49,420 nucleotides of DNA from Tannerella sp. (GTDB lineage Bacteria; Bacteroidota; Bacteroidia; Bacteroidales; Tannerellaceae). This document shows, piece after piece, positions 19,596 to 49,150 of the stretch. The DNA lies in the NCBI GenBank assembly GCA_031276675.1, contig JAISMO010000135.1:1-49420 (forward strand). The letters run 5' to 3'. The position numbers were made by a program, and so were the translations under genes. Below the pieces are notes generated by a model that saw only the letters and a list, made by a program, of their open reading frames with translations, made no database searches and had not been told where the DNA came from. Positions within the stretch are counted from its first letter, which is position 1, and the number at the start of each line of letters is the position of its first letter.

Positions 19596-19868
19596 GCCGG
19601 TCTTTTCTCCGGCGCTGAAGAGAGACTTTTCCTCTTCTGCATCGGGAAGATACGGGCAGGCGTTACTGTCTGTCGAGCAGTAGCGTTACGTCACGTTGAG
19701 TAGTAACGTTACGTCGTGTCGAGTAGTAACGTTACGTCGCGTCGAGTAGCAGTGTTACAAAGAGATGCTTTGTAGCGTTACAAAGAGATGCTTTGTAGCA
19801 TTACAAAGCGCCTCAACGGTTCGGCCATACTTTGCGGAAGCGTGCCGGGAGCTGTTTTCGGCGAGGGC
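19596..19868 (+). repeat. Composite dispersed element, copy 1 (with array B of 23-bp palindromes)
   Basis: Left flank 19596-19677 begins GCCGGTCTTTTCTCC and contains TTCCTCTTCTGCATC. Sub-array 1 has three 23-bp units with core GTAGTAACGTTACGTC (19675-19743). Sub-array 2 has two identical 23-bp units, dyad CTTTGTAGCGTTACAAAG (19754-19799), plus partial ones. Right flank 19826-19868 begins CATACTTTGCGGAAGCGTGC. Both flanks and the order of sub-arrays recur inverted at 48762-49150. The element fills most of the 500-bp gap 19422-19921 between two minus-strand genes. Short frames cross it, but the 23-bp period and non-silent differences between copies argue against coding. Confidence 0.88.
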
Positions 19869-19921
19869 AAACGCCTCCGGCGTACAGGGCGCTGCCCTCT
19901 GCCATCCACCTGCTTGCCGGG

Positions 19922-22372
19922 CTACAGCCGGATTGTCAGTACGTCTTCCGGCTGCATCCCTGTTTCCAGTATGCCGCCGGTCACGGGACAGGAAACGGGC
20001 TTCCCGTTCAGCGCGACGCTCATTTCAAACCGGTCTGCCGGCAGTTTTACCCGGAAACGGCCGCTTGCGTGCGCCTTCAGTCCGACCTCCTGCCAGCGAC
20101 CGTTTTTCCACCGGGCGGCCACTTCGCCTCCGCCCGCTACGCGCAAACCGCTGAAAGAGCCGGTTTGCCAGGCCGCCGGCAGCGCCGGCAGAAATTCAAT
20201 GTATCCGTTCCGGCTCTGCACCAGCATTTCTGCAATACCGGCGGCTCCTCCAAAATTTCCGTCGATCTGAAACGGCGGATGAGCGCAGAACAGATTGGGA
20301 TACGTTCCCCCGCCCTGCTCATAGTCGAATCCCTTCTTTGTGCAGGGCCTTAGCAGGTCGGTCAGCAGTTTGTACGCATGTTCCCCGTCGCGCAGGCACG
20401 CCCAGAAATTCACTTTCCAGGCCATCGACCAGCCGGTGCTTTCGTCGCCACGCGCTTCCAGCGTTTTACGCGCGGCTGCCGCAAGCTCGGGCGTCTTTTC
20501 CGGCGTAATCTCACTGCCCGGATACAGGCCGTAGAGGTGGGACACGTGACGGTGATGCGGATCGCTTTCCGGGAAAGGTTCCATCCACTCCATGATACGA
20601 CCGTCGGGGCTGATGGTGGTCGGCATCAGACGTGCCTGCCTGTCGGCGAGGGTTTTCACGAAGTCCCCGTCAACACCCAGTATCCCGGCAGCTTCGGTAA
20701 CGTTCTGAAACAGTTCGCGCAGGAGCTGGTTATCCATCGCGGAACCGGCACAGACACTGACGCGCTTCCCGCCGGGCATGACGTACGCATTCTCCGGCGA
20801 AGTGGTCGGCGCCGTGACCAGATACCGGCTGCGCGGGTCTTCTACCAGCATGTCCGTGAAAAACAGCGCCGCCTCCTTCATCACCGGATACACCCCGGCC
20901 AGGTAGGCCCTGTCCTGCGTATACAGGTAGTGATTGTACAGATGGGCGCACAGCCAGGCGGCCGAAGTATTGGTGGCGCCCCAGGAGGGATGATCGCCGG
21001 GCGCCGTGAACTCCCATACGTTGCCCAGTACGTGCGTGACCCAGCCCCGCGCGTTGTAGAACACCTTTGCTGTGTGACGACCGCTCTCCACCTGCTGTTT
21101 CGTCCATTCAATCAGGGGAAGATGCAACTCCGCCAGATTGCCTGATTCCGCCGGCCAGAGGTTCATCTGCAAATTGATATTCAGGTGATAGTCTCCGTTC
21201 CACGGAGTTTGAACCGTATGACACCACAGGCCCTGCAGATTGGGCGGAAGACCGCCGGGACGGGTGGATGAGATCAGCAGGTAACGCCCGAACTGGTAAT
21301 ACAGCGCCGCCAGGGACGGATCGTTGCCTTCCCGTTGAAAAGCCTCCAGACGCTGATTCATCGGCAGAGCCTCCTTCTCTTTCACATACCCGAAATCGAC
21401 CCTGACCCTGCTGAAAAGCTTCCGGTAAGCCGCCTCGTGCTCGCTTTTCAGCTGTTCATACCGTTTATTTTCCACCGCCTGAAACAGCGAGTCCAGCTGT
21501 CCGTTCACCTCTTTCCCGAAATAATCGGTAGCCATGCCCGTCAGCAGGATTATTTCGGAAGCGTTTTTCACCTGCAGGAGCGTATCGTCCGTAATGATTT
21601 GCTGACCGTCGCGCGGCAGGATCACCCGTACCCGCGCGCCATACCGGATGCCCTCCGGCGCCTTCAGGCTGTCGCCGCCGAACAGGCGTCCGCTCATCTG
21701 GAGGCCGGAGCCGCCGGGCGAAACGGCATACCGCTCGGGACGATCCAGCGAAATGCTCACGTTCAGCGCCTTTTCACTGTCTGCACACAGGTAGATCACG
21801 GCCAGATCCGCGGCAAACGAAGTGAAGGCCTCCCGACGGAAAGTCGTCCCGCCCTTTTTGAAAGAAACCGTGGCTACGGCCCTGTCGAGATTCAGTTCGC
21901 GCCGGTAGCCGGATACCTCCTCTGCATCTTCGTTGAAGGAATACCGCAGTCTCAGGTTACCCAGCACCTGATAACTGCCGTAGGGCAGGCTCGCACCGTT
22001 ACCCCGTCCGCCGCCTTCACCTCTGCACACAAACGTTTTATACATCAGTTCCTGCGCCTCGTCATTCCGTCCTTCAAACAGCAGCCTGCGGATTTCCGGC
22101 AACGCCCCCGCTGCCGCCGGATTGTCCGTATTCTGCCGGCTGCCCGACCACATCGAAATCTCGTTCAGCACACAGTTTTCCTGTTCCACTCCGCCGTCCG
22201 GCATCAGACCGATCCGTCCGTTTCCCAGCGGCAACGTCTCTTCCCACACGCTTGCCGGCGCGTCAAAATGATAGGACAAATCGCCCCTTGTCACAATTTC
22301 CACCACTTTGCCGCACCCGCAAACAAACAGGCACGACACCCAAAAAAATACCTTCACTCGGTTCATATCCAT
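19922..22372 (-). CDS. GH95 family alpha-L-fucosidase lipoprotein
   Basis: 816 residues, the usual GH95 length. The leader ends at the lipobox FVCGC, so the enzyme is a periplasmic or surface lipoprotein. The N-terminal beta-sandwich domain starts with LSYHFDAPASVWEETLPLGNGRIG and WSGSRQNTDNP. In the (alpha/alpha)6 barrel, GDYHLNINLQMNLWPAES supplies the two catalytic-site Asn, TTSPENAYV the acid Glu and FQIDGNFGGAAGIAEM the Asp, by comparison with Bifidobacterium AfcA. It would cut terminal fucose (alpha-1,2 in characterised members; some relatives act on L-galactose). It stands alone with its own promoter; no Sus genes are adjacent. Confidence 0.93.
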   Translation of the reverse strand: MDMNRVKVFFWVSCLFVCGCGKVVEIVTRGDLSYHFDAPASVWEETLPLGNGRIGLMPDGGVEQENCVLNEISMWSGSRQNTDNPAAAGALPEIRRLLFEGRNDEAQELMYKTFVCRGEGGGRGNGASLPYGSYQVLGNLRLRYSFNEDAEEVSGYRRELNLDRAVATVSFKKGGTTFRREAFTSFAADLAVIYLCADSEKALNVSISLDRPERYAVSPGGSGLQMSGRLFGGDSLKAPEGIRYGARVRVILPRDGQQIITDDTLLQVKNASEIILLTGMATDYFGKEVNGQLDSLFQAVENKRYEQLKSEHEAAYRKLFSRVRVDFGYVKEKEALPMNQRLEAFQREGNDPSLAALYYQFGRYLLISSTRPGGLPPNLQGLWCHTVQTPWNGDYHLNINLQMNLWPAESGNLAELHLPLIEWTKQQVESGRHTAKVFYNARGWVTHVLGNVWEFTAPGDHPSWGATNTSAAWLCAHLYNHYLYTQDRAYLAGVYPVMKEAALFFTDMLVEDPRSRYLVTAPTTSPENAYVMPGGKRVSVCAGSAMDNQLLRELFQNVTEAAGILGVDGDFVKTLADRQARLMPTTISPDGRIMEWMEPFPESDPHHRHVSHLYGLYPGSEITPEKTPELAAAARKTLEARGDESTGWSMAWKVNFWACLRDGEHAYKLLTDLLRPCTKKGFDYEQGGGTYPNLFCAHPPFQIDGNFGGAAGIAEMLVQSRNGYIEFLPALPAAWQTGSFSGLRVAGGGEVAARWKNGRWQEVGLKAHASGRFRVKLPADRFEMSVALNGKPVSCPVTGGILETGMQPEDVLTIRL

Positions 22373-22406
22373 TTCTTTTTTTTAGTTCCGTTCTTTTTTA
22401 CCGGGA

Positions 22407-22414
22407 CAAATATA
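22407..22414 (-). promoter_or_regulatory. -7 element (TATATTTG) of the GH95 gene
   Basis: Exact TAnnTTTG match on the minus strand, 34 bases before the GH95 ATG. The 299-bp divergent gap 22373-22671 also carries the porin promoter; a 75-codon minus-strand frame in it has no recognisable product and I do not call it. Confidence 0.65.
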
Positions 22415-22593
22415 GCACAGAATCCTTAAGGTTACGGTTGAAAAAATCGAGGTTAAAGATTTCCGCGCGGAGTATGCTGCCACAGGTCGATGACTCGCGC
22501 TCGGGAAACGGCGGCCTTCTTTTTCAGTCATAAAAATCAGGCTGATACCTAAAAACAGGTAGTACGGCAGTTTAAAATGGTCATTGGTAGTGA

Positions 22594-22624
22594 TTGTGTC
22601 CAGCGTCAAAAATGTTTAACTTTG
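22594..22624 (+). promoter_or_regulatory. Promoter of the porin gene
   Basis: -33 TTG (22594-22596), 20-bp spacer and -7 TAACTTTG (22617-22624); the ATG is at 22672. Confidence 0.65.
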
Positions 22625-22671
22625 CGGACTGAAAAAGGTTTGTCTGTCAGGCATCATTAATGAAGTAGAAA

Positions 22672-24012
22672 ATGAAAAAAAGATATGCACTGTTCCTTGG
22701 AACAGGATTGATGAGTATATGTATGGAGCTTTCGGCCCGTGACGGCATTGAAAGCGAAGGGCAGGTCACGGGTTCCGTGTCGGCGGTTGAGGCAGGCAGG
22801 ACGGTGAATCCGCCCGTGTCGCGCCTGCAACTGGGCGGCTATGGCGAGGCGGTGGCTCAGCGCATGTTCTACAGCGACAGCCCCGCGCGATACTGGTATC
22901 CGGAAACCAACAGGGATGCGGTTCATGGCCGTTTCGATCTTCCTCACGTTGTTTTTTATCTCGCCTATGATTTCGGTCACGGCTGGAAAGTGTCCACCGA
23001 AGTAGAGTTTGAACACGGAGGCACGGGTTCGACCTACGAAATCGAGACTACGGAGGCCGGCGAATACGAGACCGAAATCGAAAAAGGCGGTGAAGTCGCC
23101 CTTGAACAGTTCTGGATTGAAAAAAGTTTCTCGTCTGCGGCCAATCTGCGCATGGGACATATTATCGTGCCGGTGGGGCTGACGAATCAGCATCACATGC
23201 CTACGGAGTTTTTCTCCGTCCTCCGCCCGGAGGAGGAAACGGCCATCCTCCCCAGCACGTGGCATGAAACGGGCGTCAGTTTCTGGGGACGCCTGAAGGC
23301 ATGGCGTTATGAGATGCAGTTTATTTCCGGTCTGGACGCCGAACGCTTCAGCGAAGCCGGCTGGATTCAGGGCGGCTCGACTTCCCCCTACGAGTTCTCC
23401 ATTGCCAACAACTATGCGGGCGCTCTGCGGGTAGACAACTACTCGGTAGAGGGCTTGCGCATGGGGCTGAGCGGCTATTTCGGATTCAGTGCGAGAAATA
23501 GCCTGAAACCCGACCGCTATGTATATGACGGCTCGCCCGTCAACGGTTCCGTGACCGTCGGCACGCTGGACGCCGTCTACGACTACCGCGCGGTGCTGGC
23601 GCGTGCCAATGCCGTCTACGGTCACCTGGGCGATTCGTACACCATTTCGCGAGTCAACAAGAAGATGCCTTCCAAAAGCCCGTCGGCGCGGACGGACGTG
23701 GCCTCGGACGTGCTGAGCTGGTATGTTGAAGCGGGCTATGACGTGATGTCGTTCTTCCCCGGCCGCAGGTATCGGGGAGATAAATTATATGTATACGGGC
23801 ACTGCGGTTACTACCATTCGATGTACAGGACCGTCTCAAGCATCATGCCCAAAAGATGGTGCGAAAAACGAATCTTCAGCGCCGGATTGAACTACTTCCC
23901 CCTGCGCGACGTGGTTATCAAGGCCGAATATCAGTTCCGGAAGTTCGAGGCGCCGTACAACAACGAGCCGACCCTTTCGCTGGGCGTTGCCTATTCGGGA
24001 CTTTTTCTGTGA
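22672..24012 (+). CDS. Outer-membrane porin, probably linked to metal uptake
   Basis: 446 residues with a signal peptide ending near ELSARDG. LQLGGYGEAVAQRMFYSD is a first beta strand of a Bacteroidetes porin; strands with alternating hydrophobic residues continue through FDLPHVVFYLAYDFGHGWKVSTEVEFEHGG and RMGHIIVPVGLTNQHHMPTEFFSVLRPEEE, which resembles phosphate/short-substrate porins of the OprO/OprP type. The C-terminus is a classical last strand (PTLSLGVAYSGLFL, terminal hydrophobic residue). It lies 44 bp upstream of an imelysin-like lipoprotein and a di-heme oxidoreductase, a set often found together in Bacteroidetes and thought to serve iron acquisition. Substrate is inferred from context only. 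Confidence 0.75.
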   Translation: MKKRYALFLGTGLMSICMELSARDGIESEGQVTGSVSAVEAGRTVNPPVSRLQLGGYGEAVAQRMFYSDSPARYWYPETNRDAVHGRFDLPHVVFYLAYDFGHGWKVSTEVEFEHGGTGSTYEIETTEAGEYETEIEKGGEVALEQFWIEKSFSSAANLRMGHIIVPVGLTNQHHMPTEFFSVLRPEEETAILPSTWHETGVSFWGRLKAWRYEMQFISGLDAERFSEAGWIQGGSTSPYEFSIANNYAGALRVDNYSVEGLRMGLSGYFGFSARNSLKPDRYVYDGSPVNGSVTVGTLDAVYDYRAVLARANAVYGHLGDSYTISRVNKKMPSKSPSARTDVASDVLSWYVEAGYDVMSFFPGRRYRGDKLYVYGHCGYYHSMYRTVSSIMPKRWCEKRIFSAGLNYFPLRDVVIKAEYQFRKFEAPYNNEPTLSLGVAYSGLFL

Positions 24013-24056
24013 CATTCTATCATATAAGTATTCATTCAATAAAACAACAAGCAATT

Positions 24057-25241
24057 ATGAAGAAATTATTTTGTAACATTATGTCGGTAACGGCAACCCT
24101 GATACTGGTTGCCGGCATGTCCTCGTGCGAGAAAGACAAAGGCGGCGACGAGGGCAGGGAGACAAACAGCGATGAACTGTATCAGTCCATTCTCGGTTCG
24201 TATATTGAATCGACCGTTATTCCCACCTACCGGTCGCTGGCTGAAGCGGCGCTCGAAATGCGCGCCGCCAACACGGCGCTGAAAAACGACCCGTCGGATG
24301 CGAACATGAAAGCGGCTTCGGATGCGTGGATGAAAGCGCGCATCGCGTGGGAAATCAGCGAAGCATTCCTGTTCGGACCCGTGGGCGAACAGGCGCTGGA
24401 TATTGACGGGCACATTGATTCCTGGCCGCTGGAACTGGACCTGATACTGGCAACGCTGGAACAGGAAGCGACCGAACTGACCGGCGAGAAAGCCTGGGCG
24501 GAACTGGATGCCGAGGTCATCGGCTTTCATGTCACCGAATACCTCCTCTTTCGCGAAGGGCAGGCGCGACCGGTGAGCGACCTCTCGGAGGCTGAACTGA
24601 AATACCTTACGGCAGCTACCGACGCACTGGTGTGGGATTGCGTGCTGGCCTACGTAGCCTGGGCAGGCGAAAATGCGGTAACGACGGAGATGCGTGCCGT
24701 TTTCAACGAGAACCCCGACGTAAAAGCGCACCTGGAGGCCAATGCCAGCTATAAGGAATTTGCCGGGAAGCTGTCTCCGCGGTCGGCAGGCGGCAACTAT
24801 GCCTCCTGGGCCGATGCACTGAGCGAGATAGCCGTCGGCGCTGCCGAAATCGCAGGCGAGGTGGGCGCTACCAAAATTGCCGAACCCTACGAAAACCGGC
24901 GGACGGAAGATGTGGAATCCTGGTATAGCTGGCATTCGCTGGATGACTACCAGAACAATATCCGCAGCATTCAGAACGCCTATCTCGGCGGCATGGACGA
25001 CAATTCGCGCCGGACGGCCTGCCTGAGCGCCTGCATTGCCACGGTGGATGCCGACCTGGACCGCGACATCAAAGCCGGGATAAACGATTGCCTGACCAAA
25101 ATTGCCGCTATCGGAACGGGAGGCAAATCGTTCTACGAAGTCGTGCGCGACCAGATTAACGCTCCGCAGGTTGATGCGGCGGTCGAAGCCTGTATCACAC
25201 TTCAAAACCTGTTTGACCGTATCCCGGATATTATTGAATAA
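24057..25241 (+). CDS. Imelysin-family lipoprotein
   Basis: 394 residues from the ATG at 24057; an upstream in-frame extension overlaps the porin gene. The lipobox VAGMSSC gives Cys22. An all-helical body holds the imelysin (peptidase M75, ICMP-like) signature GFHVTEYLLF, that is GxHxxE, near residue 160. NTALKNDPSDANMKAASDAWMKARIAWEISEAFLFGPV is the typical first imelysin helix pair. Members bind iron or haem-related ligands in the periplasm or at the surface. It follows the porin by 44 bp and precedes the di-heme oxidoreductase by 86 bp, so it likely belongs to the same metal-uptake set. Confidence 0.88.
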   Translation: MKKLFCNIMSVTATLILVAGMSSCEKDKGGDEGRETNSDELYQSILGSYIESTVIPTYRSLAEAALEMRAANTALKNDPSDANMKAASDAWMKARIAWEISEAFLFGPVGEQALDIDGHIDSWPLELDLILATLEQEATELTGEKAWAELDAEVIGFHVTEYLLFREGQARPVSDLSEAELKYLTAATDALVWDCVLAYVAWAGENAVTTEMRAVFNENPDVKAHLEANASYKEFAGKLSPRSAGGNYASWADALSEIAVGAAEIAGEVGATKIAEPYENRRTEDVESWYSWHSLDDYQNNIRSIQNAYLGGMDDNSRRTACLSACIATVDADLDRDIKAGINDCLTKIAAIGTGGKSFYEVVRDQINAPQVDAAVEACITLQNLFDRIPDIIE

Positions 25242-25272
25242 CAGTCAATCAATAAATCAATGGCAAGTAAGA

Positions 25273-25309
25273 GGAAAAGTGCGGGTATTTTGTATATTTG
25301 CACTTTTCC
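25273..25309 (+). promoter_or_regulatory. -7 element inside an inverted repeat upstream of the di-heme oxidoreductase
   Basis: -7 TATATTTG (25293-25300) lies between the arms of a perfect 10-bp inverted repeat GGAAAAGTGC (25273-25282) / GCACTTTTCC (25300-25309). The ATG is at 25328. The repeat may be an operator covering the promoter, or the hairpin may act as a terminator or attenuator after the imelysin gene. Confidence 0.6.
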
Positions 25310-25327
25310 CATTCATTTAAAAAAGGT

Positions 25328-26860
25328 ATGAAAAGATTCAATTCACTGATCACTACAACGCTGCTGCTTGTGCTGGCGGCAGCCTGTTCGGACGACCCGG
25401 CCCTGGACCCGGTCTTGCCGGACGACAACGGGTATGGCGAAGAATGGTATGCCGGCGGCAAAAACGGTACCGTCTTCAACGCTACGGCACGCGCCTACAG
25501 GCAGCCGGTGCAGGCCATCAATGAAGACCCCGTGCTCTACCGTCAGTTTATGCGCGGCGAGGAACTGGCCGCCAAGAGTTTTGTGGCGGCCGGCGAAACG
25601 GGCTACTCCGGCCTCGGCCCGGTATACATCCGCAAGTCCTGCATCGCCTGCCACCCCAGCTACGGGGGACACAGCAAGCGGGTCGACAGGTTTGACACCA
25701 ACGACAGCCGCAACGGCTACCTGCTGATGATCTACGACCCGGCCTCGCCCACACTGGCGCTGGCCTCAAAGTATTTCACCGGCATGACGCAGACGCGCGC
25801 CGTCGCTCCCTTCAAGCCGCCCATCAACGAAGCGGGCATCCACCTGACGTGGCACGAATACGTTGACGAACACGGCAACCGATACGAAGACGGCACGCCC
25901 TACAGCGACGGCTACAGCTATGCCGGTACGCTGATCTATCCGACCGTCGAGGTCGATCAGAGCGCCATCCTGTTCCCCGACTTCGACATGAGCCGGCACG
26001 CCGCTTCCATCGAAGCCACCATCGGCATCTACGGCGTCGGCCTGATCGACGCCATCTCCGACGAGGATTTGCGGGCACAGTACGAAGAAGAACAGGCACG
26101 CGGATACTGTCCGGGCGTGATTGGCGCCGACATCGACGAGACCGGCCTGAATCCCTACTTCCCCGGCAAGCATCCCGGACGTTTCACCTACCTCTGTACC
26201 CGTGCGACGCTGGACAACGGGCCGGGCGCAAATGCCCTCTGGAACATTACCAACGTGACACGCCCCGACCGGAAGTATCACTACATCACCGAAGAATATG
26301 CCCGTGTCATGTCCGAGGACGCCGACGTGCAGGCAGCGCTGAAAAAAACGGCGGAGGAGATCAAAGCCGACCTGATGTCCACCCGGCTGGACGCGGAAAT
26401 GACGGCGGAAGATTTCGAGGCTTTCATGGTATGGCACCGCGCCCTCGCCGTGCCGGCCGCACGCAACCTCGACGACGAGACCGTACAGCGCGGACGCACG
26501 CTCTTTTACGAAACCGGCTGCACGGCCTGCCACCGTCCGTCGTGGACCACCCGCGCCGACTATACGCCGATGCCGGCCCTGTCGAACCAGAAGATTTATC
26601 CCTATTCCGACCTGCTGCGCCACGATCTGGACATGAAGGAACCGGGACGCGCCCGCGTATGCCGCACAACACCCCTGTGGGGACGCGGCCTGCTGCCCGT
26701 CACCTCGGGACACTCCGACATGCTGCACGACCTGCGTGCCCGCAACTGCGAGGAAGCCATCCTCTGGCACGGCGGCGAAGCCAAAAACACCAGGGAAAAG
26801 TTCCGTGCCATGCCGAAAGCCGACCGTCAAGCGTTAATCCGCTTCCTGGAATCAATCTGA
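25328..26860 (+). CDS. Di-heme oxidoreductase (DHOR/thiol oxidoreductase) family lipoprotein
   Basis: 510 residues from the ATG at 25328; the lipobox LAAAC places it in the envelope. Two c-type haem sites are present: CIACH (105-109) and CTACH (398-402). GLGPVYIRKSCIACHPSYGG and GRTLFYETGCTACHRP are the usual surroundings in the DUF1111/DHOR family, related to di-haem peroxidases. The TTPLWGRGLLP and MLHDLRARNCEEAILWHGGEA motifs near the C-terminus are the family's distal-ligand region. Its partner proteins here are the imelysin lipoprotein and the porin, and the three probably handle iron. The exact redox substrate is unknown. Confidence 0.9.
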   Translation: MKRFNSLITTTLLLVLAAACSDDPALDPVLPDDNGYGEEWYAGGKNGTVFNATARAYRQPVQAINEDPVLYRQFMRGEELAAKSFVAAGETGYSGLGPVYIRKSCIACHPSYGGHSKRVDRFDTNDSRNGYLLMIYDPASPTLALASKYFTGMTQTRAVAPFKPPINEAGIHLTWHEYVDEHGNRYEDGTPYSDGYSYAGTLIYPTVEVDQSAILFPDFDMSRHAASIEATIGIYGVGLIDAISDEDLRAQYEEEQARGYCPGVIGADIDETGLNPYFPGKHPGRFTYLCTRATLDNGPGANALWNITNVTRPDRKYHYITEEYARVMSEDADVQAALKKTAEEIKADLMSTRLDAEMTAEDFEAFMVWHRALAVPAARNLDDETVQRGRTLFYETGCTACHRPSWTTRADYTPMPALSNQKIYPYSDLLRHDLDMKEPGRARVCRTTPLWGRGLLPVTSGHSDMLHDLRARNCEEAILWHGGEAKNTREKFRAMPKADRQALIRFLESI

Positions 26861-26957
26861 GGCAAAGTTTCATTTCGATGGCCGGCTTCTCCGAAAGATT
26901 TTGAGCGTATTATCTCATGTTACGCATCCGGGTTTATCCACCGCTATGGCAGACACG

Positions 26958-27095
26958 CCGCTGTGCCGTCGGAGCGGGTGACCGCTATGCATTAGAGCAG
27001 CCGCCCGCTATGCATTAGAGCGGGCGCCTGCCATGCATTAGAGCGGGTACCCGCTATGCATTAGAGCGGGAGACCGATATGCATTATTAAACGGG
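26958..27095. repeat. Tandem array C: 23-bp palindromic units
   Basis: Five clear 23-bp units (26981-27095) preceded by one degenerate unit (26958-26980). The core CCGCTATGCATTAGAGCGG has a dyad with arms CCGCT/AGCGG around ATGCATTAG. It occupies the gap 26861-27208 between the di-heme oxidoreductase and a GNAT gene. The period is not a multiple of three. Outside the array the gap holds only a 13-base word shared with 42729-42741 and the GNAT promoter. Confidence 0.92.
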
Positions 27096-27155
27096 ACGGC
27101 CTGATTGTCGGCATCGAGGCTGCCCGATGGAGGCAGAAATACCGCATACAGGGTA

Positions 27156-27186
27156 TTTGGCAGGGGATGCAAAGCCTCTACTTTTG
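27156..27186 (+). promoter_or_regulatory. Promoter of the GNAT-GST pair
   Basis: -33 TTTG (27156-27159), 19-bp spacer and -7 TACTTTTG (27179-27186), a full match to the Bacteroidetes consensus; the ATG is 22 bp further on. Confidence 0.75.
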
Positions 27187-27208
27187 CGCTCAAAAAAACA
27201 GGTTTGTA

Positions 27209-27643: not shown

Positions 27644-27678
27644 ACAGAAATAAAAAATAGAAATACATACACAATCGG

Positions 27679-28653: not shown

Positions 28654-28669
28654 AAGAAGCTTTTTGAAA

Positions 28670-29410: not shown

Positions 29411-29436
29411 TCCTGTTTCTTTTTATTCGGTTCGGG

Positions 29437-31393: not shown

Positions 31394-31395
31394 CC

Positions 31396-33521: not shown

Positions 33522-33771
33522 CGGCAGAACCATAAAAACGAACGGATTCATGCTCCCGTCCACAGGCAAAACCGTAAAAAAAAACGATTTCATGCTTCGT
33601 ACCTGCGGCAGAACCGTAAAAATGACTGTTTTCATGCTTCATACCAGCGGCAGAACCATAAAAACGGCCGTTTTCATGCTTCGTACCAGCGGCAGAAGCA
33701 TAAAAACGACTGTTTTCATGCTTCGTACCAGCGGCAGAAGTATAAAAATACTCGGAAACACGATTCTGCCG
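33522..33771. repeat. Tandem array D: 42-bp units made of two inverted 21-bp halves
   Basis: Five 42-bp units (33522-33731) and a last partial one. Each unit begins CGGCAGAACCATAAAAAC and continues GACTGTTTTCATGCTTCG; the second 21 bases are a degraded reverse complement of the first, with the clearest dyad AAAACGACTGTTTT. The final unit closes in a perfect hairpin, CGGCAGAA (33732-33739) / TTCTGCCG (33764-33771), with a nested GTATAAAAATAC. It lies in the 492-bp gap 33438-33929 between converging genes. Frames reading FYGSAAGTKHENSH arise from the 14-codon period. Nothing else is recognisable in the gap. Confidence 0.9.
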
Positions 33772-41600: not shown

Positions 41601-42212
41601 TCCCAGTCCGCGCACGCGGATTTGCAGGTCCATGCCGGGCTGTCCGTCAATAGCCGACAGCTGCACGCCCGGCACGGCGCCTTCCAGCGCCTTGGATACC
41701 GTCGAAACGGATTGCAGTCCGACCACTTTCGAATCAATCGTGGATACGGAACCGATCAGGTCCTTTTTTCGGGCCGAACCGTAGGCAATCACCGTGACTT
41801 CCTCCAGCGCCACATTGTCTTCGTGCAGCACAATGTGGAAGCGGGTTTGCGAACCGACCGCCACCTCCTGCGTCACGAATCCGACGAAGGAGAAAGTCAG
41901 TACCGCATGGCTGTTCGGCACATGCAGCGTGAAATGTCCCTCCGCGTCCGTGATGACGCCGGTAGTCGTTCCCTTTATGGCCACGTTTGCTCCCGGCAGC
42001 GGATCGCCGCTGGCGTCCACCACCGTACCCGTCACCTGCGTGCCTTGCTGCGGTTCCATAAACTCGCTCGGCGCGCCTTCGTGATTGTGAACCGCCGACT
42101 TTTGGCCGGATTTGGCCGACAAACCGGTCGCTCCGACGAAAAGCATCAAATACACACACATACATTTCATTTTCCGATTCCATTCGGAACAAAGTCTTCT
42201 TTTGTCATCCAT
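38646..42212 (-). CDS. SusC/RagA family TonB-linked outer-membrane transporter
   Basis: 1188 residues. A signal peptide MKCMCVYLMLFVGATGLSA begins at Met15 (42170), which may be the true start. Then come a CarboxypepD-regulatory-like domain (about 60-140: TGTVVDASGDPLPGANVAIKGTTTG), the TonB box EEVTVIAYG (about 145), a plug with RVRGLGSANENSAFALVVIDGVP and SITVLKDAASTAMYGSRGANGVVLVTTKKG, and a large beta barrel ending in GIDISF with a terminal Phe. No STN domain is present, so it is not of the anti-sigma signalling type. It imports the ligand held by the SusD protein encoded downstream, using TonB energy. Confidence 0.97.
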   Translation of the reverse strand: MDDKRRLCSEWNRKMKCMCVYLMLFVGATGLSAKSGQKSAVHNHEGAPSEFMEPQQGTQVTGTVVDASGDPLPGANVAIKGTTTGVITDAEGHFTLHVPNSHAVLTFSFVGFVTQEVAVGSQTRFHIVLHEDNVALEEVTVIAYGSARKKDLIGSVSTIDSKVVGLQSVSTVSKALEGAVPGVQLSAIDGQPGMDLQIRVRGLGSANENSAFALVVIDGVPALTGDVLTTVNSKDIESITVLKDAASTAMYGSRGANGVVLVTTKKGAKGKARVAYEGRFGVNQVSSNGRFDLIEDPKDYYEYAWLSVYNDVRYKALQTMSTNVKNPNMSDQEAREFASAHLFDYDGSTDPSKFKRNALGNWMLYDVPGAQYTKTGPNSNDAGATMSGAYLVGTDGKLNPNARLLYNDKYYDWYFVKRFRQEHNVTISGANDKVDYFISTGFLDDPAYVKNAMFKRYSARGNVNAQVNDWLKAGINASYSNRTTQAPATRYGRNAGAAGQNLFRWYEAGNPLASVWAHNLDGSYKLDQNGNKIFTSAQGLTDSPLGVTNVLYGAYDLEKLLKMDKDVQTSNDVSFRGYVEAKFLKDFTFTAFVNQDAFFTLRHRYWNSETGAATNYRGAFGETFQHSYNLDVQQLLKYDKSLGRHQIDVVAGHEYQLYRTETMSTKYNNSLIPGFDTYANFVGFNQSSTFSGNGGGKDRFAMESYFGRANYSYNNKYYGEVSLRGDGSSKFKKAENRWGLFWSVGGGWRISGEDFMAGTSEWLNDLKLRGSYGVIGNQNGLGYYSGYQTWTLGASSYTYSGSSWSVLPANYTLSIGGFPNDALTWENVHTLDGAVEFRLFDRIAGTVEYYNRTTVNMIWAQPIAFSLGQRTLDKNTAKMNNYGVEAALDIALIRNKNLFWSVNLNGTHYRSVIKSVPAGVGSGADNTWEAYNGTFLRGEGKDFYNLYYYKYCGVDQNTGLALYQATVSAIDLENAANNPNDARFNDVRGHQVGDIIQTINYEIADRYEMGSATPDIIGGFGTTLQYKGFDLTALFSFQLGGKYLSNDYAYNLYNGNAGQLGIALSKDLLGNTWTPENTAARFPMQMYSNDPYTTGCTLGSWKYTDMALFSASYLNMKNLTAGYTLPASLLNRIGYISNLRVFVTLDNMYTLTAKSGLEPRMSLTGGADVGASPYPYMSSMSAGIDISF

Positions 42213-42231
42213 GTTTGAAAAAATTAAATTC

Positions 42232-42243
42232 TACAATGTTGTA
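42232..42243. promoter_or_regulatory. Palindrome TACAATGTTGTA in the susC leader
   Basis: A 12-bp palindrome with arms TACAA/TTGTA lies between the susC -7 element and its start codon. Its placement just downstream of the predicted transcription start would suit a repressor operator. No regulator gene is nearby. Confidence 0.4.
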
Positions 42244-42253
42244 ATTTCGGCAG

Positions 42254-42261
42254 CAAAGGTA
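42254..42261 (-). promoter_or_regulatory. -7 element (TACCTTTG) of susC
   Basis: Exact TAnnTTTG match on the minus strand, 41 bases upstream of the ATG at 42212. Confidence 0.7.
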
Positions 42262-42880
42262 GCAGTATTTCAACCGCACATTTCGATTCCTTGCGTTAAA
42301 TAACAAAAAAACAATTTGCGGAGCAGGCAGACTATCGCCCGAAAAACACGTTGCGCAGGGAGAAGGAAAACGCTTCTCATGCCCGTCAGGCAACCGTTCA
42401 CCGGGGGTGCGGAAAGGGAAAAACGGCTCGAACACAGACTCCGGTCGACGGGGTAGACGGCAGGAAGCCGTTTTTATGTCGGAAGTTTACGAAAGAAGAC
42501 TGCACCTTTTTCAGCAAAAGAAAAGTAGAGAAGCGTAAAAGATGTACAACCGTTTCAGGGCACCGACAGGTGCGGGGCATGATAAATTTAACCGGAGTGT
42601 GGCACGCTGTTTTGTTTCGCTTGCACAAGAGTTCTAAAATTTAACACCCTGATAAATAACCCCCGAACCGGCAAAGCGCCGTGCGGAGCAGGGAAACCCG
42701 TCCGGAACGCGGCGCGAAGAAGCAGTAACTCATGTTACGCAGCATCCTCCGGGCATTTCAGCCGGTTGCACCCTGATGGTTGGAGGCCAATGTCCTCAAG
42801 TGAAGGATTACGTTGCATGTTTATAGTCGGTTAGCATATGATATTTACCGCCGGACTTTCCATTTTCAACTCCCAGAAAC

Positions 42881-43122
42881 TTCCGGGGAGTTCCCGGAGA
42901 CTTTTCGGGAACTCTCAAAATCTTTCGGGAACTCCCCGAAATCTTCGGGGAACTCACCGAAACCTGCGGGGAGTTCCCCGGAACTTCCGGGGAACTCCCA
43001 AAAACCTTCGGGGAATTCCCAAAAACTTTCGGGGAACTCCCCAAGCCTTCGGGGAACTCCCCGGAAGTTCCGGGGAACTCCCAAAAAACTCTGGGGAACT
43101 CGCCGGAACTTTCGGGGGAGAC
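42881..43122. repeat. Tandem array E: 21-bp palindromic units
   Basis: About eleven 21-bp units in strict phase, core TCGGGGAACTCCCC, dyad CGGGGA-N2-TCCCCG in the best units. Variation is mainly in the linker between cores (CGAAATC, AAAAACC, GGAACTT). GGGGAGTTCCCC-type variants show both strands of the same motif. Confidence 0.92.
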
Positions 43123-43714
43123 AAAAAAGGATTCATTTTCAGCCATATCGCATTTTCCCTGTTACAGCATACAAGTATGAACCGCTTAAAAAGAAATGAA
43201 ATGAGCGGAAACTTGCCGGCAGATGTCCGAGACGCCGCCCACGGACCGGTCGGAACCCGTACACGGCGAATTCACCGCCCGTTCGCCGCTGAGGCTGTCT
43301 TTCAAAGGATACGACCGCGGCAAACGTATCTACTTTGCCGCACGCCGGAAAATACCCGCGGGGTAAAGGGGCATGTCATCAAGTTAAGCGATGAAAAAGG
43401 AGGTTTTATCGTTGCCTGTCCAACAGGAGGGGTTGTTATATGCTATTGATTTTTCATCCCTGAGCAAAAACGGGTGATAGGGATGGAGTTAAAAGAAAGG
43501 GTCGCACGCTGCGCCGGAGGCGTCGGGAGGAGACCCTTCGAAATGCGCCCGAACAGTCTACATTTTTGCAGTCTTCAGGGCTTTTCCCCTACATTTCCGA
43601 AACCTCCCGTGCCGTATTCCTTTCTTCCGTGAAAGCGGACAGACGGTCGGGAATGACTGACTGTCTGCATATTGTTCACGTTATGCAATCTTTTGAATAT
43701 CGAATCGGCTGTTT

Positions 43715-43730
43715 TGGCACAGGTATTGAA
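43715..43730 (+). promoter_or_regulatory. Sigma-54-type promoter upstream of nifB
   Basis: TGGCAC-AGGTA-TTGAA matches the -24/-12 consensus TGGCAC-N5-TTGCA with the exact spacing (10 bp between GG and the -12 G) and one important mismatch, GA instead of GC at -12. The predicted start is about 43741 and the nifB ATG is at 43761. A NifA-type activator is encoded at 46603. No TGT-N10-ACA upstream site was found. Confidence 0.6.
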
Positions 43731-43760
43731 AAGAAAGGGAACAAAACAGTTCAATGAATT

Positions 43761-45023
43761 ATGAAGGATTTGTCCAGACATCCCTGTTTTCAGGCGGAAG
43801 CCGGGCGGCGCTATGCACGGGTGCATCTGCCTGTGGCGTCGCGGTGTAACATTCAGTGCAACTATTGCAACCGGAAATACGATTGCTGCAATGAGAGCCG
43901 TCCGGGCGTGACGAGCGCCGTACTGTCGCCTTTGCAGGCAGTGCACTATCTGCAAGCGCTGGAGGCGAAAATCCCCGACATCAGCGTCATCGGCATTGCC
44001 GGGCCGGGAGATCCCTTTGCCACTCCGGAGGAAACGATTCAGACCCTCCGGCTGGTCAGGCAGGCCTTTCCGGACAAGTTGCTCTGTCTGTCTTCCAACG
44101 GACTGGAACTGTCGCCCTTCATTCGTGAAATTACAGAAGCCGAAGTTTCGCATGTCACGGTCACGGTTAATTCGGTGCGACCGGAGACTCTGGCGAAAAT
44201 CTACCGCTGGGTGAGGTACAGCCGGCGTGTGTATCGCGGCGAAGAAGCCGGAAGGATTTTGCTGGAGCAGCAGTTGAAGGCGATTCTCCTTTTGAAGGAA
44301 AAAGGCATGACCGTCAAGATCAATACGGTGATTTGTCCGGGCGTCAATGACGGCGAGGTTGCGGAAATCGCCGAACGGGTAGCCTCACTGGGCGCCGACA
44401 CGATGAATCCGATTCCGATGGTTCCTGCCGAAGATACGGAATTTGAGACGCTGCCCGTGCCATCCAAGGAACAGATGAAAAGAATCAAATCGGACATTGC
44501 ACGCCACATTCGGCCAATGACCCACTGTGCCCGTTGCCGCGCCGATGCGGCCGGACTGCTGGGACAGGATCACCCGGAGGCCATGCAGCTGATCGGACAG
44601 TTCTCGGCGCTGGTCGTGAACAGGGGCGAAGGGCGCGAACGGGTAGCCGTGGCCAGTCAGGAAGGACTGCTGGTCAATCTCCATCTGGGAGAAGCCCGCA
44701 GGATGTATGTCTTCGAGCAGTCGAAAAACGGCTACCATTTTGTGGAAATCCGGCAAACGCCGCCCGCAGGCGCCGGATTGCAACGCTGGCAAGAACTGGC
44801 CGCCAGGACGCTGGCCGACTGTAAGGCGATACTGGTGGCCGGGATCGGCGAAACGCCGATGAAGGTGATTCAGGAAAACGGCATCCGGGTGATTCAGATG
44901 AGCGGTCTTATTGACGCGGGACTGGACGCCGTCTATCTGGATTTGCCCATCCGGACGCTGTGTCGCAGCGAATACATGCGCTGCGGCGAGTCCTGCCGGG
45001 GTACGGGCGCCGGTTGCGGTTAA
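43761..45023 (+). CDS. nifB: Nitrogenase cofactor biosynthesis protein NifB
   Basis: 420 residues. The N-terminus HPCFQAEAGRRYARVHLPVASRCNIQCNYCNRKYDCCNESRPGV is the NifB signature; the radical-SAM Cys are 29, 33 and 36 (CxxxCxxC). GIAGPGDPFATPEET and CPGVNDGEV are further NifB motifs, and MTHCARCRADAAGLLG ends the SAM domain. Residues about 285-400 form a NifX/NafY-like domain, so this is the fused form; the tail CGESCRGTGAGCG is Cys-rich. NifB builds NifB-co, the 8Fe-9S-C core of the nitrogenase cofactor. First gene of nifB-ferredoxin-nifV. A gene for NifB with these Cys almost always means real nitrogen fixation capacity, but nifHDK are not in the window. Confidence 0.97.
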   Translation: MKDLSRHPCFQAEAGRRYARVHLPVASRCNIQCNYCNRKYDCCNESRPGVTSAVLSPLQAVHYLQALEAKIPDISVIGIAGPGDPFATPEETIQTLRLVRQAFPDKLLCLSSNGLELSPFIREITEAEVSHVTVTVNSVRPETLAKIYRWVRYSRRVYRGEEAGRILLEQQLKAILLLKEKGMTVKINTVICPGVNDGEVAEIAERVASLGADTMNPIPMVPAEDTEFETLPVPSKEQMKRIKSDIARHIRPMTHCARCRADAAGLLGQDHPEAMQLIGQFSALVVNRGEGRERVAVASQEGLLVNLHLGEARRMYVFEQSKNGYHFVEIRQTPPAGAGLQRWQELAARTLADCKAILVAGIGETPMKVIQENGIRVIQMSGLIDAGLDAVYLDLPIRTLCRSEYMRCGESCRGTGAGCG

Positions 45024-45073
45024 GCGGTTAACAGGAAAAGTAGAATGATCGGTATATAATAAATGAACAAACG

Positions 45074-45376
45074 ATGAAGAAGCCGGATTATATGATTTTG
45101 GTATGCAACTCCTACCGGGTGGCGGGAGATGCGCAGGGTTACTGCAACAAACAGGGCGCCGCTTCGCTGGTGCAGTATTTAACGGAAGAATGCAGCGATC
45201 GGGGCATTGACGCCGCGGTCACCACCACGGCCTGCCTGAGCCTGTGCAGTCAGGGGCCGGTCGTGGTGATTCAGCCCAACAACTACTGGTACGGAGAAGT
45301 GACCGAAGACAAGCTGGACCGCATCCTCGACGCACTGGAAGCCGGCGAGGCGGTAAAGGAATATTTGATTGCGTGA
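45074..45376 (+). CDS. Thioredoxin-like [2Fe-2S] ferredoxin, nif-associated
   Basis: 100 residues. Cys11, Cys24, Cys54 and Cys58 have the C-x12-C-x29-C-x3-C spacing of thioredoxin-fold 2Fe-2S ferredoxins such as Clostridium pasteurianum 2FeFd and the Azotobacter nif-linked ferredoxin; Cys40 is extra. MILVCNSYR and TACLSLCSQGPVVVIQPNNYWYG are the characteristic cluster loops. It lies 50 bp after nifB and its stop abuts the nifV start, so it is part of the nif operon and probably supplies electrons to or interacts with cofactor assembly or nitrogenase. Confidence 0.92.
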   Translation: MKKPDYMILVCNSYRVAGDAQGYCNKQGAASLVQYLTEECSDRGIDAAVTTTACLSLCSQGPVVVIQPNNYWYGEVTEDKLDRILDALEAGEAVKEYLIA

Positions 45377-46525
45377 ATGTGGCTGATTGATACGACACTT
45401 CGCGACGGCGAGCAGGCGCCGGGCGTCGCCTTCCGTGCGGAGGAGAAAATCCGGCTTGCGCAGATGCTGAACGAGATCGGCGTTGACGAAATCGAAGCCG
45501 GTACGCCGGCCATGGGCGAATCCGAATGTGAGGTTGTGCGCCGCATGGTCGCCCTGCGGCTGAACGCCCGCGTTTCCGTCTGGAGCCGTGCACTCGAAAA
45601 AGACATCCGGCAGGCGGCGGCCACGTCGGCCGAAGCCATTCACATCGCCTTTCCCGTGTCGGACATTCAGTTGAAAGCCATGAGCAAGGAATGGCAATGG
45701 GTGAAAGATACGCTGCCGGAACTGGTGACCTGCGCCTCGAAACTGTTTCCGTATGTGAGCGTCGGCGCGCAGGATGCCGGCCGGTGCACACCGGAACGGC
45801 TGGCGGAATTTTTGCAGCTGGTCGGCCGGCAGCCTGCGGCCGACCGCATCCGCCTGGCCGATACGGTGGGGATCATGACGCCCTTGAGCGTGGCTGCGCT
45901 GATGCGGCAGGTGCGGGACATAGTGCCGGTACTGGCTATTGACTTTCACGGGCACAACGACCTGGGGATGGCGACGGCCAACGCAATCACGGCATGGCAG
46001 TCGGGCGCCACAGCCGTAAGCGTGACCGTCAACGGACTGGGTGAACGCGCCGGAAATGCCGCGCTCGAAGAAATCCTGATGATACTGTCGCAAGTGTACC
46101 GGATGGAAAAATACGCCACCTCGACCCTGTTTGCTCTGTGCCGATACGTTGCCGGCATTTCCGGACGCCCCGTTCATCCGGGCAAACCGGTCTGCGGCGA
46201 CATGGCCTTCAGTCACGAATCGGGTATCCACGCCAAGGCGACGCTGGCCGATACGCTGGCGTTTCAGGCATTCGACGGCAAACGGGTCGGTCGCGAAAGC
46301 TTCCGGACGCTTTTCGGCAAACATTCCGGTCGCGGAGCGGTCGGGGAGTTGCTGAAAGCGCATCACCGGAAGGTCAGTGACGAACAAATATCCTGTCTGA
46401 CGGAACAGATCCGGCAGTCGGCGCAAACAAACAAACGTTCCGTCTCGCCACCGGAAATACGTATCATGCAAAACCGCATCTTCCTTCAACGTCCGCACAT
46501 AAAGAAAGACAAAATGACAAAATAA
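45377..46525 (+). CDS. nifV: Homocitrate synthase NifV
   Basis: 382 residues, starting directly after the ferredoxin stop. [48 protein letters not shown] is the NifV-type N-terminus ([10 protein letters not shown] rather than the DGEQ(S/T)xG of LeuA). [14 protein letters not shown] provides the metal His pair, [14 protein letters not shown] follows, and [14 protein letters not shown] and [11 protein letters not shown] end the barrel. There is no LeuA regulatory domain. It condenses acetyl-CoA and 2-oxoglutarate to homocitrate, the organic ligand of the FeMo cofactor. The link to nifB and the ferredoxin settles nifV over leuA. Confidence 0.94.
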
Positions 46526-46559
46526 CCGGATATAATTTATCATTCCGATTTATTTTTCT

Positions 46560-46567
46560 TACTTTTG
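46560..46567 (+). promoter_or_regulatory. -7 element (TACTTTTG) of nifA
   Basis: Exact TAnnTTTG match 35 bases before the nifA ATG. It suggests that nifA is transcribed by the housekeeping sigma factor while nifB uses sigma-54. Confidence 0.65.
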
Positions 46568-46602
46568 CCATCAGATAGACTAATTTATTTGATCAAAAGA
46601 CT

Positions 46603-48165
46603 ATGTATTGTAAAAGAAGCGGAAAGGATTGCTACGCGGAAACCGACCTGGAGTTCCTGCTCAATGTCAGTGACATCATCAGCCACAGCGAAGACATGTA
46701 CAAAAACCTGGAAGCCGTATTGAAAGATCTCTGTCTGTTTTTAAAAGCGCAATGCGGCATGATCACGATTGTCGACCACGAGCACGGGAAGATTATGATC
46801 GGTGCGGCTTACGGATTGACGCAGGAAGAACAGAACCGGGGCACCTACGGCATGGGCGAAGGAATTGTCGGCAAAGTGGCGGAAACGGGCAAGCCGGTGA
46901 TTATTTCCGATGTTTCGAAGGACGCGGCGTTTCTGAACCGGACCGGCGCCAAAAAACAGGACGGGAAAATCACGGCATTCCTGTGCGTCCCCGTCATTGT
47001 AAAAAACGAAATTATCGGCACGTTGAGCATCCACAGAGATCATCAGTGCGAGAGTGACTTTTCGCACGAAATCAAGTTCCTCAACATCGTCGGCATGTTG
47101 ATCGGAAAAAACGTGACCATCCGGCGCAAGCATATCGCGGAACTGGAAGAACTGCGCAGAGAAAACCTCCGCCTGAAGTCGGACAGGCCGGTGAAGCCGG
47201 ACAATATCATCGGCAATTCATCGCTGATGCACGACCTGTACCAGCTCATCGAACGTGTTTCGCCCACCGGCAGTACCGTGCTGATTCGCGGCGAAAGCGG
47301 CGTGGGCAAGGAACTGATTGCGGAAGCCATCCACAAGGCCAGCGCCCGGGCAGGCAAACCGTTTGTGAAGGTGAACTGCTCGGCCATGCCCGAAACGCTG
47401 ATCGAAAGCGAACTGTTCGGACATGAAAAAGGCGCTTTTACCGGCGCCATCGCCACGCACACCGGCAAGTTTGAACTGGCCAACGGCGGCACCATCTTCC
47501 TGGATGAAATAGGCGACGTGCCTCCCAGCATTCAGGTCAAGCTGCTCCGAGTGCTGCAACAGCGGCAAATCGAACGCATCGGCAGTAACAGGACGCTGCA
47601 TGTGGACGTACGCATCATTACGGCCACCAATCGCGACCTGGAAGAAATGATCCGGAACAATACCTTTCGCGAAGATTTCTATTACCGCATCAATGTCTTT
47701 CCCCTCTACGTGCCGGCCCTGCGCGAACGGAAAGCGGACATCACGATACTGGCCGACCATTTCATCAACAAGATCAACCGGCGGAACGGGATGAACGTCA
47801 AGCGGATTACCGGCGGCGCGCTGGACATGCTGATGATGTATTCGTGGCCGGGCAACGTCCGCGAACTGGAAAACGTGATTGAGCGGGCCATGATCATGAC
47901 CACCGACCATGTGATCCATTCCTACAACCTGCCCCCTTCGCTGCAAACGGCCGTTTCGTCGAACACGATCGACAAGGGTTCGCTCGGGCTGGTGCTGGGG
48001 AAGGTGGAAAAACAAATGATTATCGACACCCTGATTGCCAACAAGGGCAACATCGCCCGATCGGCGCTCCGGCTGGGCATCACCGAACGCATCATGGGAC
48101 TGCGTATCAGAAAATACGGTATCCATGCACAAAACTATAAACACCTCTCGAATGACAACGGCTGA
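46603..48165 (+). CDS. nifA: NifA-type sigma-54-dependent activator
   Basis: 520 residues. N-terminal GAF domain (about 30-175: [30 protein letters not shown]), then an AAA+ domain with Walker A GESGVGKE (230-237), the sigma-54-contacting loop GAFTGA (277-282), Walker B FLDE (Asp301, Glu302) and the R-finger region [15 protein letters not shown] Fis-type helix-turn-helix ends the protein (about 480-512: [28 protein letters not shown]). All Cys lie before residue 270, with none in the linker after the AAA+ domain, so the CX4C motif of oxygen-sensitive NifA is absent; two Cys (3 and 10) stand at the very N-terminus. It follows nifV and overlaps the next gene by 14 bp. Confidence 0.92.
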
Positions 48166-48628
48166 AACCTGCATCACGGCTTGCGACTACACCCGCAAAA
48201 CCCACCGGCAAGCCCTGGCAGAGATAATCAATGCCTACATCGAGGATGAAATGGGCGGCGGCGAAACCCTCTCCGAAGACGGGCAGCTCCGGCTGTCGGA
48301 AGGCCTGCAAGCTTGTCCCGGCGCCATCGTACTGCTGGCTGGACAGGCCGGCGTGTACTGCGGATTACTGACGGCCTTCGAGCATTTCTCCACCTTCACC
48401 GCACAGCCGATGATCAACATTCACGACCTCATTGTGCTGAAAGCATACAGAGGCCAAGGCATCGGACGGCAGCTGATGAACGCCCTCATCGCCGAAGCGG
48501 AAAACAGGCATTGCAGCCGGGTGACGCTCGAAGTCAGGCAGGACAACCTCGCGGCGCAGCGCCTGTACCGGAAGCTGGGTTTCGGCGATACCGATCCCCC
48601 GATGTTTTACTGGCGGAAATACCTCTGA
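48152..48628 (+). CDS. GNAT family N-acetyltransferase downstream of nifA
   Basis: 158 residues from the ATG at 48152, overlapping nifA by 14 bp in another frame; a longer frame starting inside nifA is spurious. [32 protein letters not shown] is motif A with RGQGIG as the acetyl-CoA loop, and [20 protein letters not shown] is the C-terminal GNAT signature. Overlap implies translational coupling to nifA. Its substrate and any role in nitrogen metabolism are unknown. Confidence 0.9.
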
Positions 48629-48635
48629 CCGCTTC

Positions 48636-48683
48636 GGCCTGTCTGCGGAAAAAAGACGCTGCCGTCTGTCCGTCCGACAGGCC
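48636..48683 (+). terminator. Hairpin after the nifA-GNAT unit
   Basis: GGCCTGTC (48636-48643) pairs with GACAGGCC (48676-48683) around a 32-nt loop, followed by CTTTCCCC. The long loop and lack of a T-tract make it a weak terminator candidate only. Confidence 0.35.
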
Positions 48684-48761
48684 CTTTCCCCGAAACAGCC
48701 ATACGGACGCTCCCCCGTAAAAAACCCGTACACTCACGGACTATACCGGCGGAGAGCCGGT

Positions 48762-49150
48762 CGCCCGTCGCCAAAAACAACTTCCGGCACGCTTCCACAA
48801 AGTATGTTGAATATTTGAGTCTCTTCGTAACGTTACGAAGTGTCGCTTCGTAACGTTACGAAGAGGCGCTTCGTACTGCTACGAAGAGGCGCTTCGTAAT
48901 GCTACGAAGAGGTGCTTCGTAACGCTGCGAAGAGACGCTTCATGGCGCTGTTGCGTGACACGCAGTAACGCTGTTGCGTGACACGCAGTAACGCTGTTGC
49001 GCGACACGCAGTAACGCTGTTGCGCGACGCGCAGTAACGTTACTGCGCGACACGCAACAACGCTGTTACTCGACGGGTCATCATGCTTGCCTGTATCTTC
49101 CTGATGGAGAAGAGGAAGTGTCTTTCCCGGAGGACGGAGAAAAGACCGGC
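48762..49150 (-). repeat. Composite dispersed element, copy 2 (with array F of 23-bp palindromes)
   Basis: Inverted relative to copy 1 at 19596-19868. Read on the minus strand, the left flank (49150-49078) starts GCCGGTCTTTTCTCC and contains TTCCTCTTCTCCATC. Sub-array 1 has five 23-bp units with core GTTACTGCGTGTCACGCAAC (49062-48948); sub-array 2 has five 23-bp units with the palindrome CTTCGTAACGTTACGAAG (48937-48823). The right flank (48806-48762) begins CATACTTTGTGGAAGCGTGC. The right-flank copies agree at 39 of 43 aligned bases plus one indel, all substitutions being transitions. It fills most of the 685-bp convergent gap 48629-49313; no gene is supported there. Confidence 0.9.

Follow-up and report, generated by a model that had tools for sequence, protein, structure and literature searches.

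The window analysed here is a 49,420-nucleotide stretch from Tannerella sp. (contig JAISMO010000135.1 of assembly GCA_031276675.1; genome G000, 2.9 Mb, 93.7% complete, 189 contigs). It carries two inverted copies of a dispersed element in which a leader and a tail enclose a minisatellite of 23-bp palindromic units. Judged by its ends, its length and its copy number, the family probably belongs to the miniature inverted-repeat transposable elements (MITEs), and among them to the ISL3/ISAon1 group; its core is a 23-bp minisatellite, and its plan resembles that of BrickBuilt from Porphyromonas gingivalis, with different ends. The sequence evidence makes it likely that the elements were dispersed as small transposons dependent on the transposase of another element.

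A dispersed family with the ends of an insertion sequence

A preliminary description, made from the letters of the window, had reported two inverted copies with common flanks and two sub-arrays in the same order. Both were confirmed at its positions (copy 1, 19596-19868, plus strand; copy 2, 48762-49150, minus strand). The common leader runs through GCCGGTCTTTTCTCC, then CTTCT.CATC and GGAAGATAC; two consecutive 23-bp sub-arrays follow in identical order, and then a tail beginning CATACTTTG. Tandem Repeats Finder (TRF) gave sub-arrays of 4.3 and 2.4 units in copy 1 (within 19660-19808), and of 5.6 and 5.2 units in copy 2 (within 48823-49074). The similarity between the two copies is far beyond chance.

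We searched the genome with each copy as query, obtaining 44 matching pieces with copy 2 and 29 with copy 1. Query matches merged with pattern matches and read by eye define 24 places, a dispersal in many copies as is characteristic of a MITE. Leader, array and tail are found together at 13 of the 24, some parts being partial and one copy (C15) having about one unit. Leader plus array occurs at two other places and array plus tail at two more; one place has just the array, four just a tail (two of them, on C143 and C4, weak) and two just a leader. In this count the identical contig-end leader pieces on C181 and C86 were scored as one, as were a contig-end piece on C188 and a piece on C73, which from their matching ends and a repeated TGCATA appear to be one copy cut by an insertion sequence. 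The TGCATA lies on both sides of that insertion, whose ends are ACGTGAGTTCGA (L049 from 2552, at the C188 end; L050 up to 489, on C73) and resemble the ISPg3-type MITE ends given in PMC4596501.

The elements have terminal inverted repeats, as MITEs do: the leader starts GGCTCACCYGCAAAACCCKGTGT and the tail closes with a similar sequence, inverted. The preliminary description had seen none, and they lie outside the coordinates it gave. Pairwise end alignments show four copies that retain both ends (C133, 393 bp; C69a, 371 bp; C110a, 327 bp; C15, 256 bp), and these short elements of 256-393 bp have no transposase gene of their own. The preliminary description had likewise seen no target duplication; at C110a (C110, 67.8 kb), the 8-mer GACAGGAG stands on both sides as an exact 8-bp duplication. 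The flanks of C15 (CCTGAAAC and CCCAAAAC) are equal at six of eight bases, with two transitions, and look like a decayed target duplication. No flanking 8-mer match was seen at C69a or C133. Of the window copies, copy 1 has its left end at 19558 (GGTTCACCGGCAAAACCCTGTG) and has lost its right end, while copy 2 reaches 48709 on the tail side with a degenerate right end and has no left end that we could clearly recognise.

A scan of genome contigs with the exact end pattern returned at least 116 stretches. Among the matches listed, 108 of 116 record titles name Bacteroidales groups, and the rest include plain chance matches. In L165 (Bacteroidales bacterium Gx481_bin90, a metagenome-assembled genome) the same ends, which agree with one another at 24 of 25 bases, enclose 1438 bp flanked by the 8-bp duplication CGAATATG. 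The frames of this insertion sequence match ISAon1_upstream (128.7 bits; cut-off 55), ISAon1_downstr (354.8; cut-off 250) and DDE_Tnp_ISL3, and it is these shared ends that assign the present family to the ISL3/ISAon1 group. L108, from another species, is a 260-bp pair with such ends and the duplication CAATTAAC. Short elements of 260-422 bp that share these ends and contain long inverted repeats in their interior also occur in the Dysgonamonadaceae metagenome-assembled genome Cf509_bin64 (L088, L108, L124, L125, L141 and L183); they are likely a separate MITE family of the same transposase group.

Within the host genome, an ISAon1-type transposase relic of 31 residues (58%, with a stop) adjoins an end remnant at C11:22924, and C22 encodes a different, apparently intact ISL3-family transposase (412 aa, 298 bits; protein match only). 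With up to two mismatches allowed, the end pattern was found in six of 12 congeners, most often in G018 (22 hits), and such ends therefore exist in the genus without the present element. G018 has many related ends GGRTCACCNGYAAAACCCTGTGT (e.g. L240 330-353, and L257), one of them shortly downstream of a tRNA-like sequence.

With the complete copy C133 as query, the element itself was not found in 40 congeners, of which 12 have a completeness of 90% or more and contamination no higher than 5%. The only match, in G033, was a 23-bp array that lacks both leader and tail. A pattern search for the array core, GTARCRTTAC-N13-GTARCRTTAC, gave matches in four of 41 genus genomes (40 strand hits in the host, nine in G033, four in G037 and one in G014) and in one of 393 genomes drawn across the order, namely the host; the reversed control pattern gave no match in either scan. 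The same pattern matches 13 IMG/VR stretches, and TRF gives a period of 23 in two of these viral-collection contigs, where the arrays have a GTAACGTTAC core (L323 1985-2103 and L326 3632-3697).

Several observations weigh against a transposon family of this kind. Only one of the four two-ended copies has an exact target duplication, and only two of 11 distinct end pairs have an exact 8-bp one, both in other species (L165 and L108). The L165 transposase frame is interrupted, its second part beginning at profile position 112, and no intact ISAon1-type transposase was found in the host assembly at its 93.7% completeness. No empty site was found in relatives at the three sites tried, using the flanks of copy 1 in 41 genomes and those of C110a and C133 in 11 genomes each; where a relative's listing had both flanks, they belonged to separate contigs or, in G003 with its one contig, were distant from each other, and fragmented assemblies limit this search. 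Complementarity of the unit arms, considered below, is also not kept everywhere: GTCG/AGTA pairs at one of four inner positions, and its variants also count against. An intact partner in the same genome is not strictly required of a MITE, and partners are often lost. The idea that the elements mark rearrangement breakpoints was rejected, since gene order also splits at an element-free position: in a 20-kb control, the window junction 22423|22528 lay on different contigs in all four relatives.

The two arms of the 23-bp unit usually vary together

The units follow head to tail every 23 bp with no unique spacers, unlike clustered regularly interspaced short palindromic repeats (CRISPR). Each has a frame of nine bases, a five-base centre and nine bases (e.g. 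GTTACGAAG-CGACA-CTTCGTAAC). The outer arm pairs are fairly constant and the inner four bases vary between arrays, with inner arms AAAG/CTTT, GAAG/CTTC, TGCG/CGCA, TCTA/TAGA, GCTG/CAGC and TACC/AGTA, and in congeners TAAG/TTTA, CCCG/CGGG and TTGG/CCAA.

We compared left and right inner arms in a permutation test. Before it, 34 of 145 units were excluded: tail junctions, stray anchors, all G014 units, whose anchoring was out of phase, and also one or more true units of copy 2. Of 42 arm-pair types, 28 singletons were left out, and nine mutually distinct pairs were chosen from the remaining 14 (GAAG/CTTC, TGCG/CGCA, AAAG/CTTT, GTCG/AGTA, TCTA/TAGA, TTGG/CGGA, GCCG/CAGC, TAAG/TTTA and CCCG/CGGG). 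In these nine, pairing holds at 29 of 36 positions; exhaustive permutation of the right arms gives a mean of 14.4, and only 3 of 362,880 arrangements reach 29. With all 14 types seen at least twice, 41 of 56 positions pair (permuted mean 20.2; none of 100,000 permutations reached 41).

The arrays also fold strongly relative to shuffles (z -9.3 as DNA for copy 2; z -5.6 as RNA for copy 1), as is expected of any row of inverted repeats. By best local matches, the left half of copy 1 resembles C109 most closely (89%) and the right half C117 (85%). In copy 2 the closest match is C110a (90%) for the right half, and C48 or C69a (84 and 80%) for the left. Such mosaic-looking copies would fit recombination between copies and make plausible an earlier suggestion that the element is converted.

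The same design with other ends, and clustering of repeat lengths

The window holds a second class of 23-bp palindrome array (26972-27086), which matches five places in the congener G026. Four of these (L250-L253) have a common leader and tail, unlike those of the present family, and some of these elements have ends GGTTCATTCTTT..., inverted over ~43 bp in L252 and ~10 bp in L253; no target duplication is visible at either of the two. Their arrays combine the linker ATGCATTAG with a 14-bp palindrome that varies by copy (AGTGGTC/GACCACT, ATCTGCC/GGCAGAT or GGAAGCC/GGCTTCC). Over L250-L253, another G026 array (L293) and the array in the window, pairing is seen at 153 of 175 positions, a value that leans high as units were kept only if at least four of seven positions paired. 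To judge from these sequences, L250-L253 and L293 of G026 are a second dispersed family with a leader, a copy-variable 23-bp palindrome array, a tail and unrelated ends; the design therefore recurs with ends of another kind.

Tandem-repeat lengths in the genus fall into two classes. With TRF (period 10-100, at least 2.5 copies), 102 of 116 arrays in three genus genomes have periods of 20-24 or 40-44 bp: 26 of 27 in the host (289 kb, including the window), 14 of 18 in G026 (188 kb) and 62 of 71 in G003 (400 kb). Some counted arrays may be coding, the open-frame check being weak since stop-free units stay open. In a comparison set of 728 kb of end-pattern loci (L075-L190), eight of 22 arrays fall in the two classes together, none of them at 40-44 bp; that set was chosen for its ends, is Bacteroidales by title in 108 of 116 cases, and includes some records titled Tannerella sp. 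that may be of the same genus. The window has further minisatellites of the dominant lengths, with periods of 21, 42 and 21 bp (9196-9383, 33522-33748 and 42868-43117). G003, a single 3.01-Mb contig, is very densely set with 40-44 bp minisatellites in L299-L318 (53 of 71 arrays in 400 kb).

By a first palindrome score, few 23-bp arrays stood out. A free-dyad-centre score, picked after those results were seen, gave P < 0.05 for 20-24 bp arrays in 10 of 21 cases in the host, five of 10 in G026, one of nine in G003 and one of eight in the comparison set; for 40-44 bp arrays the counts were four of five, one of four and 23 of 53 in the host, G026 and G003, respectively. Palindromes in the sampled minisatellites are thus common, not universal.

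Table 1. Features of the two element copies and of the second array class in the window
Feature	Position	Strand	Method
Left terminal inverted repeat region, copy 1 (GGTTCACCGGCAAAACCCTGTGTTCACGCAGG)	19558..19591	+	
Leader, copy 1	19592..19657	+	
Sub-array 1, copy 1; 23-bp units, type GTTACGTCG-CGTCG-AGTAGTAAC	19660..19758	+	TRF
Sub-array 2, copy 1; 23-bp units, type GTTACAAAG-AGATG-CTTTGTAGC	19754..19808	+	TRF
Tail, copy 1; ends short of the right terminal repeat	19809..19868	+	
Leader, copy 2	49089..49152	-	
Sub-array 1, copy 2; 23-bp units, type GTTACTGCG-TGTCG-CGCAACAGC	48946..49074	-	TRF
Sub-array 2, copy 2; 23-bp units, type GTTACGAAG-CGACA-CTTCGTAAC	48823..48941	-	TRF
Tail, copy 2; includes the degenerate right terminal repeat	48709..48822	-	
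Array of the second 23-bp palindrome class; linker ATGCATTAG with a 14-bp palindrome; related arrays in G026	26972..27086		TRF

Genomic placement and alternative explanations

Neighbouring genes were predicted by a codon model for which the sampled contigs and the window served as training data, and 20 of 23 rows could be classified: 10 tandem, eight convergent and two divergent. Among the rows between convergent genes, three are pieces that have only a tail or only an array. Copy 2 was assigned manually, on the basis of the stop codon at 49314-49316, which gives nine convergent sites of 21. Of the 100-800 bp gaps in the sampled contigs, seven of 75 are convergent (P = 5.5e-5). This bias fits insertion tolerance or a role at 3' ends alike. 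Under the latter explanation the elements would be kept as regulatory modules, rows of transcribed hairpins between converging genes that end transcription or shield messages, and only in the past would they have been mobile. The excess of convergent sites and the strong folding of the arrays speak for it. We nevertheless regard it as unlikely: 10 of the 21 sites are tandem and two divergent, promoter avoidance would yield the same convergent bias, leader and tail covary little, and copy 2 is situated beyond a good intrinsic-terminator-like hairpin of the neighbouring gene (49269-49236). That the conserved parts are a structural RNA, as the preliminary description had thought possible, is scarcely credible. 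The single-strand folds are stronger than shuffles, but any row of inverted repeats folds this strongly; Rfam gave no match in the window at gathering scores, two-sided changes affect only two of 14 predicted leader pairs and two of 18 tail pairs, and we found no conserved RNA fold in leader or tail. The Rfam and covariation results thus lend no support to such an RNA for the flanks.

A family resembling repetitive extragenic palindromes (REPs) and bacterial interspersed mosaic elements (BIMEs), moved by a REP-associated tyrosine transposase (RAYT) rather than a DDE transposase, would also present clustered intergenic palindromes, and REPs are known in many phyla (PMC3733652). Here, however, the ends are long terminal inverted repeats like those of an insertion sequence of the ISL3 group, and one copy has an 8-bp duplication; on these features we consider this origin very improbable. 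Duplication of one larger segment could have accounted for two copies, all that the earlier reader had noticed, and that reader had named it, alongside flanks confined to those two places and absent from relatives, as grounds for abandoning a dispersed element. Neither applies: the family occupies 24 places, the neighbouring genes differ and similarity stops near the terminal repeats, so that a single duplication is effectively refuted. The earlier proposal of a dispersed, spreading and perhaps non-autonomous mobile element is instead supported by the 24 places, the insertion-sequence-like ends, the one 8-bp duplication and the lack of any copy in the 40 congeners searched.

A MITE family of the ISL3/ISAon1 group would then work as follows. 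The shared ends enclose a minisatellite whose 23-bp units are inverted repeats with ~9-bp arms and a 5-bp centre. The array would lengthen and shorten by slippage, and hairpin-templated copying during replication would improve imperfect inverted repeats, so that both arms change together; recombination between copies would yield mosaics. Apart from the relic, the search of this assembly revealed no autonomous partner. More tentatively, and with considerable doubt, the 23-bp hairpin minisatellite could be a self-renewing module that unrelated MITE families carry throughout the genus, locked in length near two or four helical turns (20-24 or 40-44 bp), with both arms rewritten array-wide. This joint proposal would have the rewriting pass through most units at once, by hairpin-templated copying or by a dedicated protein that reads the spacing. 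Arms that co-change from copy to copy and stay complementary would be a natural record of palindrome rewriting in bacterial chromosomes (by template switching, slippage or conversion), with the clustering at 20-24 and 40-44 bp as a second testable clue.

Comparison with known systems

In the listed records and abstract openings on MITEs, minisatellites, tandem repeats, palindromes and 23-bp stem-loops in Bacteroidales and Bacteroidetes we found no account of the present element, and a literature search on ISAon1 returned no paper. With ISAon1-type insertion sequences of the ISL3 group (NF049916, NF049917; PF01610) it has in common the terminal repeats and the 8-bp target duplication; it differs in that its two-ended copies are too short for a transposase and have a minisatellite core. 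REP/BIME elements, GTAG- and CGTC-tagged, are likewise clustered intergenic palindromes, but lack a leader and tail bounded by terminal inverted repeats, and the GTAG REPs are linked to a tyrosine transposase (PMC3733652). MITE464/PgRS of P. gingivalis is also a MITE with a tandem-repeat core, whose 41-nt unit falls within the 40-44 bp class; it differs in its IS5-type ends, repetitive flanks and unit length (PMC4596501). For P. gingivalis W83 the same source mentions tandem repeats with units of 22, 23 and 41 nt.

P. gingivalis and P. gulae are already known to have a MITE whose core is a minisatellite of 23-nt units. This is BrickBuilt (Klein et al. 2015, PMC4596501), with a 23-nt core, leader, tail and inverted ends; of its 19 intergenic copies, 11 have portions of leader and tail, three the leader only, two the tail only and three neither. 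The present element shares with it the spacer-free 23-nt tandem core of variable copy number, a distinct leader and tail, terminal inverted repeats, predicted long stem-loops and some 20 intergenic copies including partial forms. The ends differ: those of BrickBuilt (GAGACCTTTGCA) match the IS5-family ISPg1/ISPg9 (PMC4596501), whereas those described here (GGCTCACCYGCAAAACC) match the ISAon1/ISL3 type, and no arms changing together between copies are described for BrickBuilt in the consulted sections of that paper. Compared by way of the published description, the present element would by analogy work like BrickBuilt, yet it is not classed as a member, because its ends were tested for the defining IS5-type feature and lack it. 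The plan is thus present in a further genus of Bacteroidales, where the ends are those of another transposase group. Since a congener has it with yet another type of end, what recurs may be the core and not the transposon.

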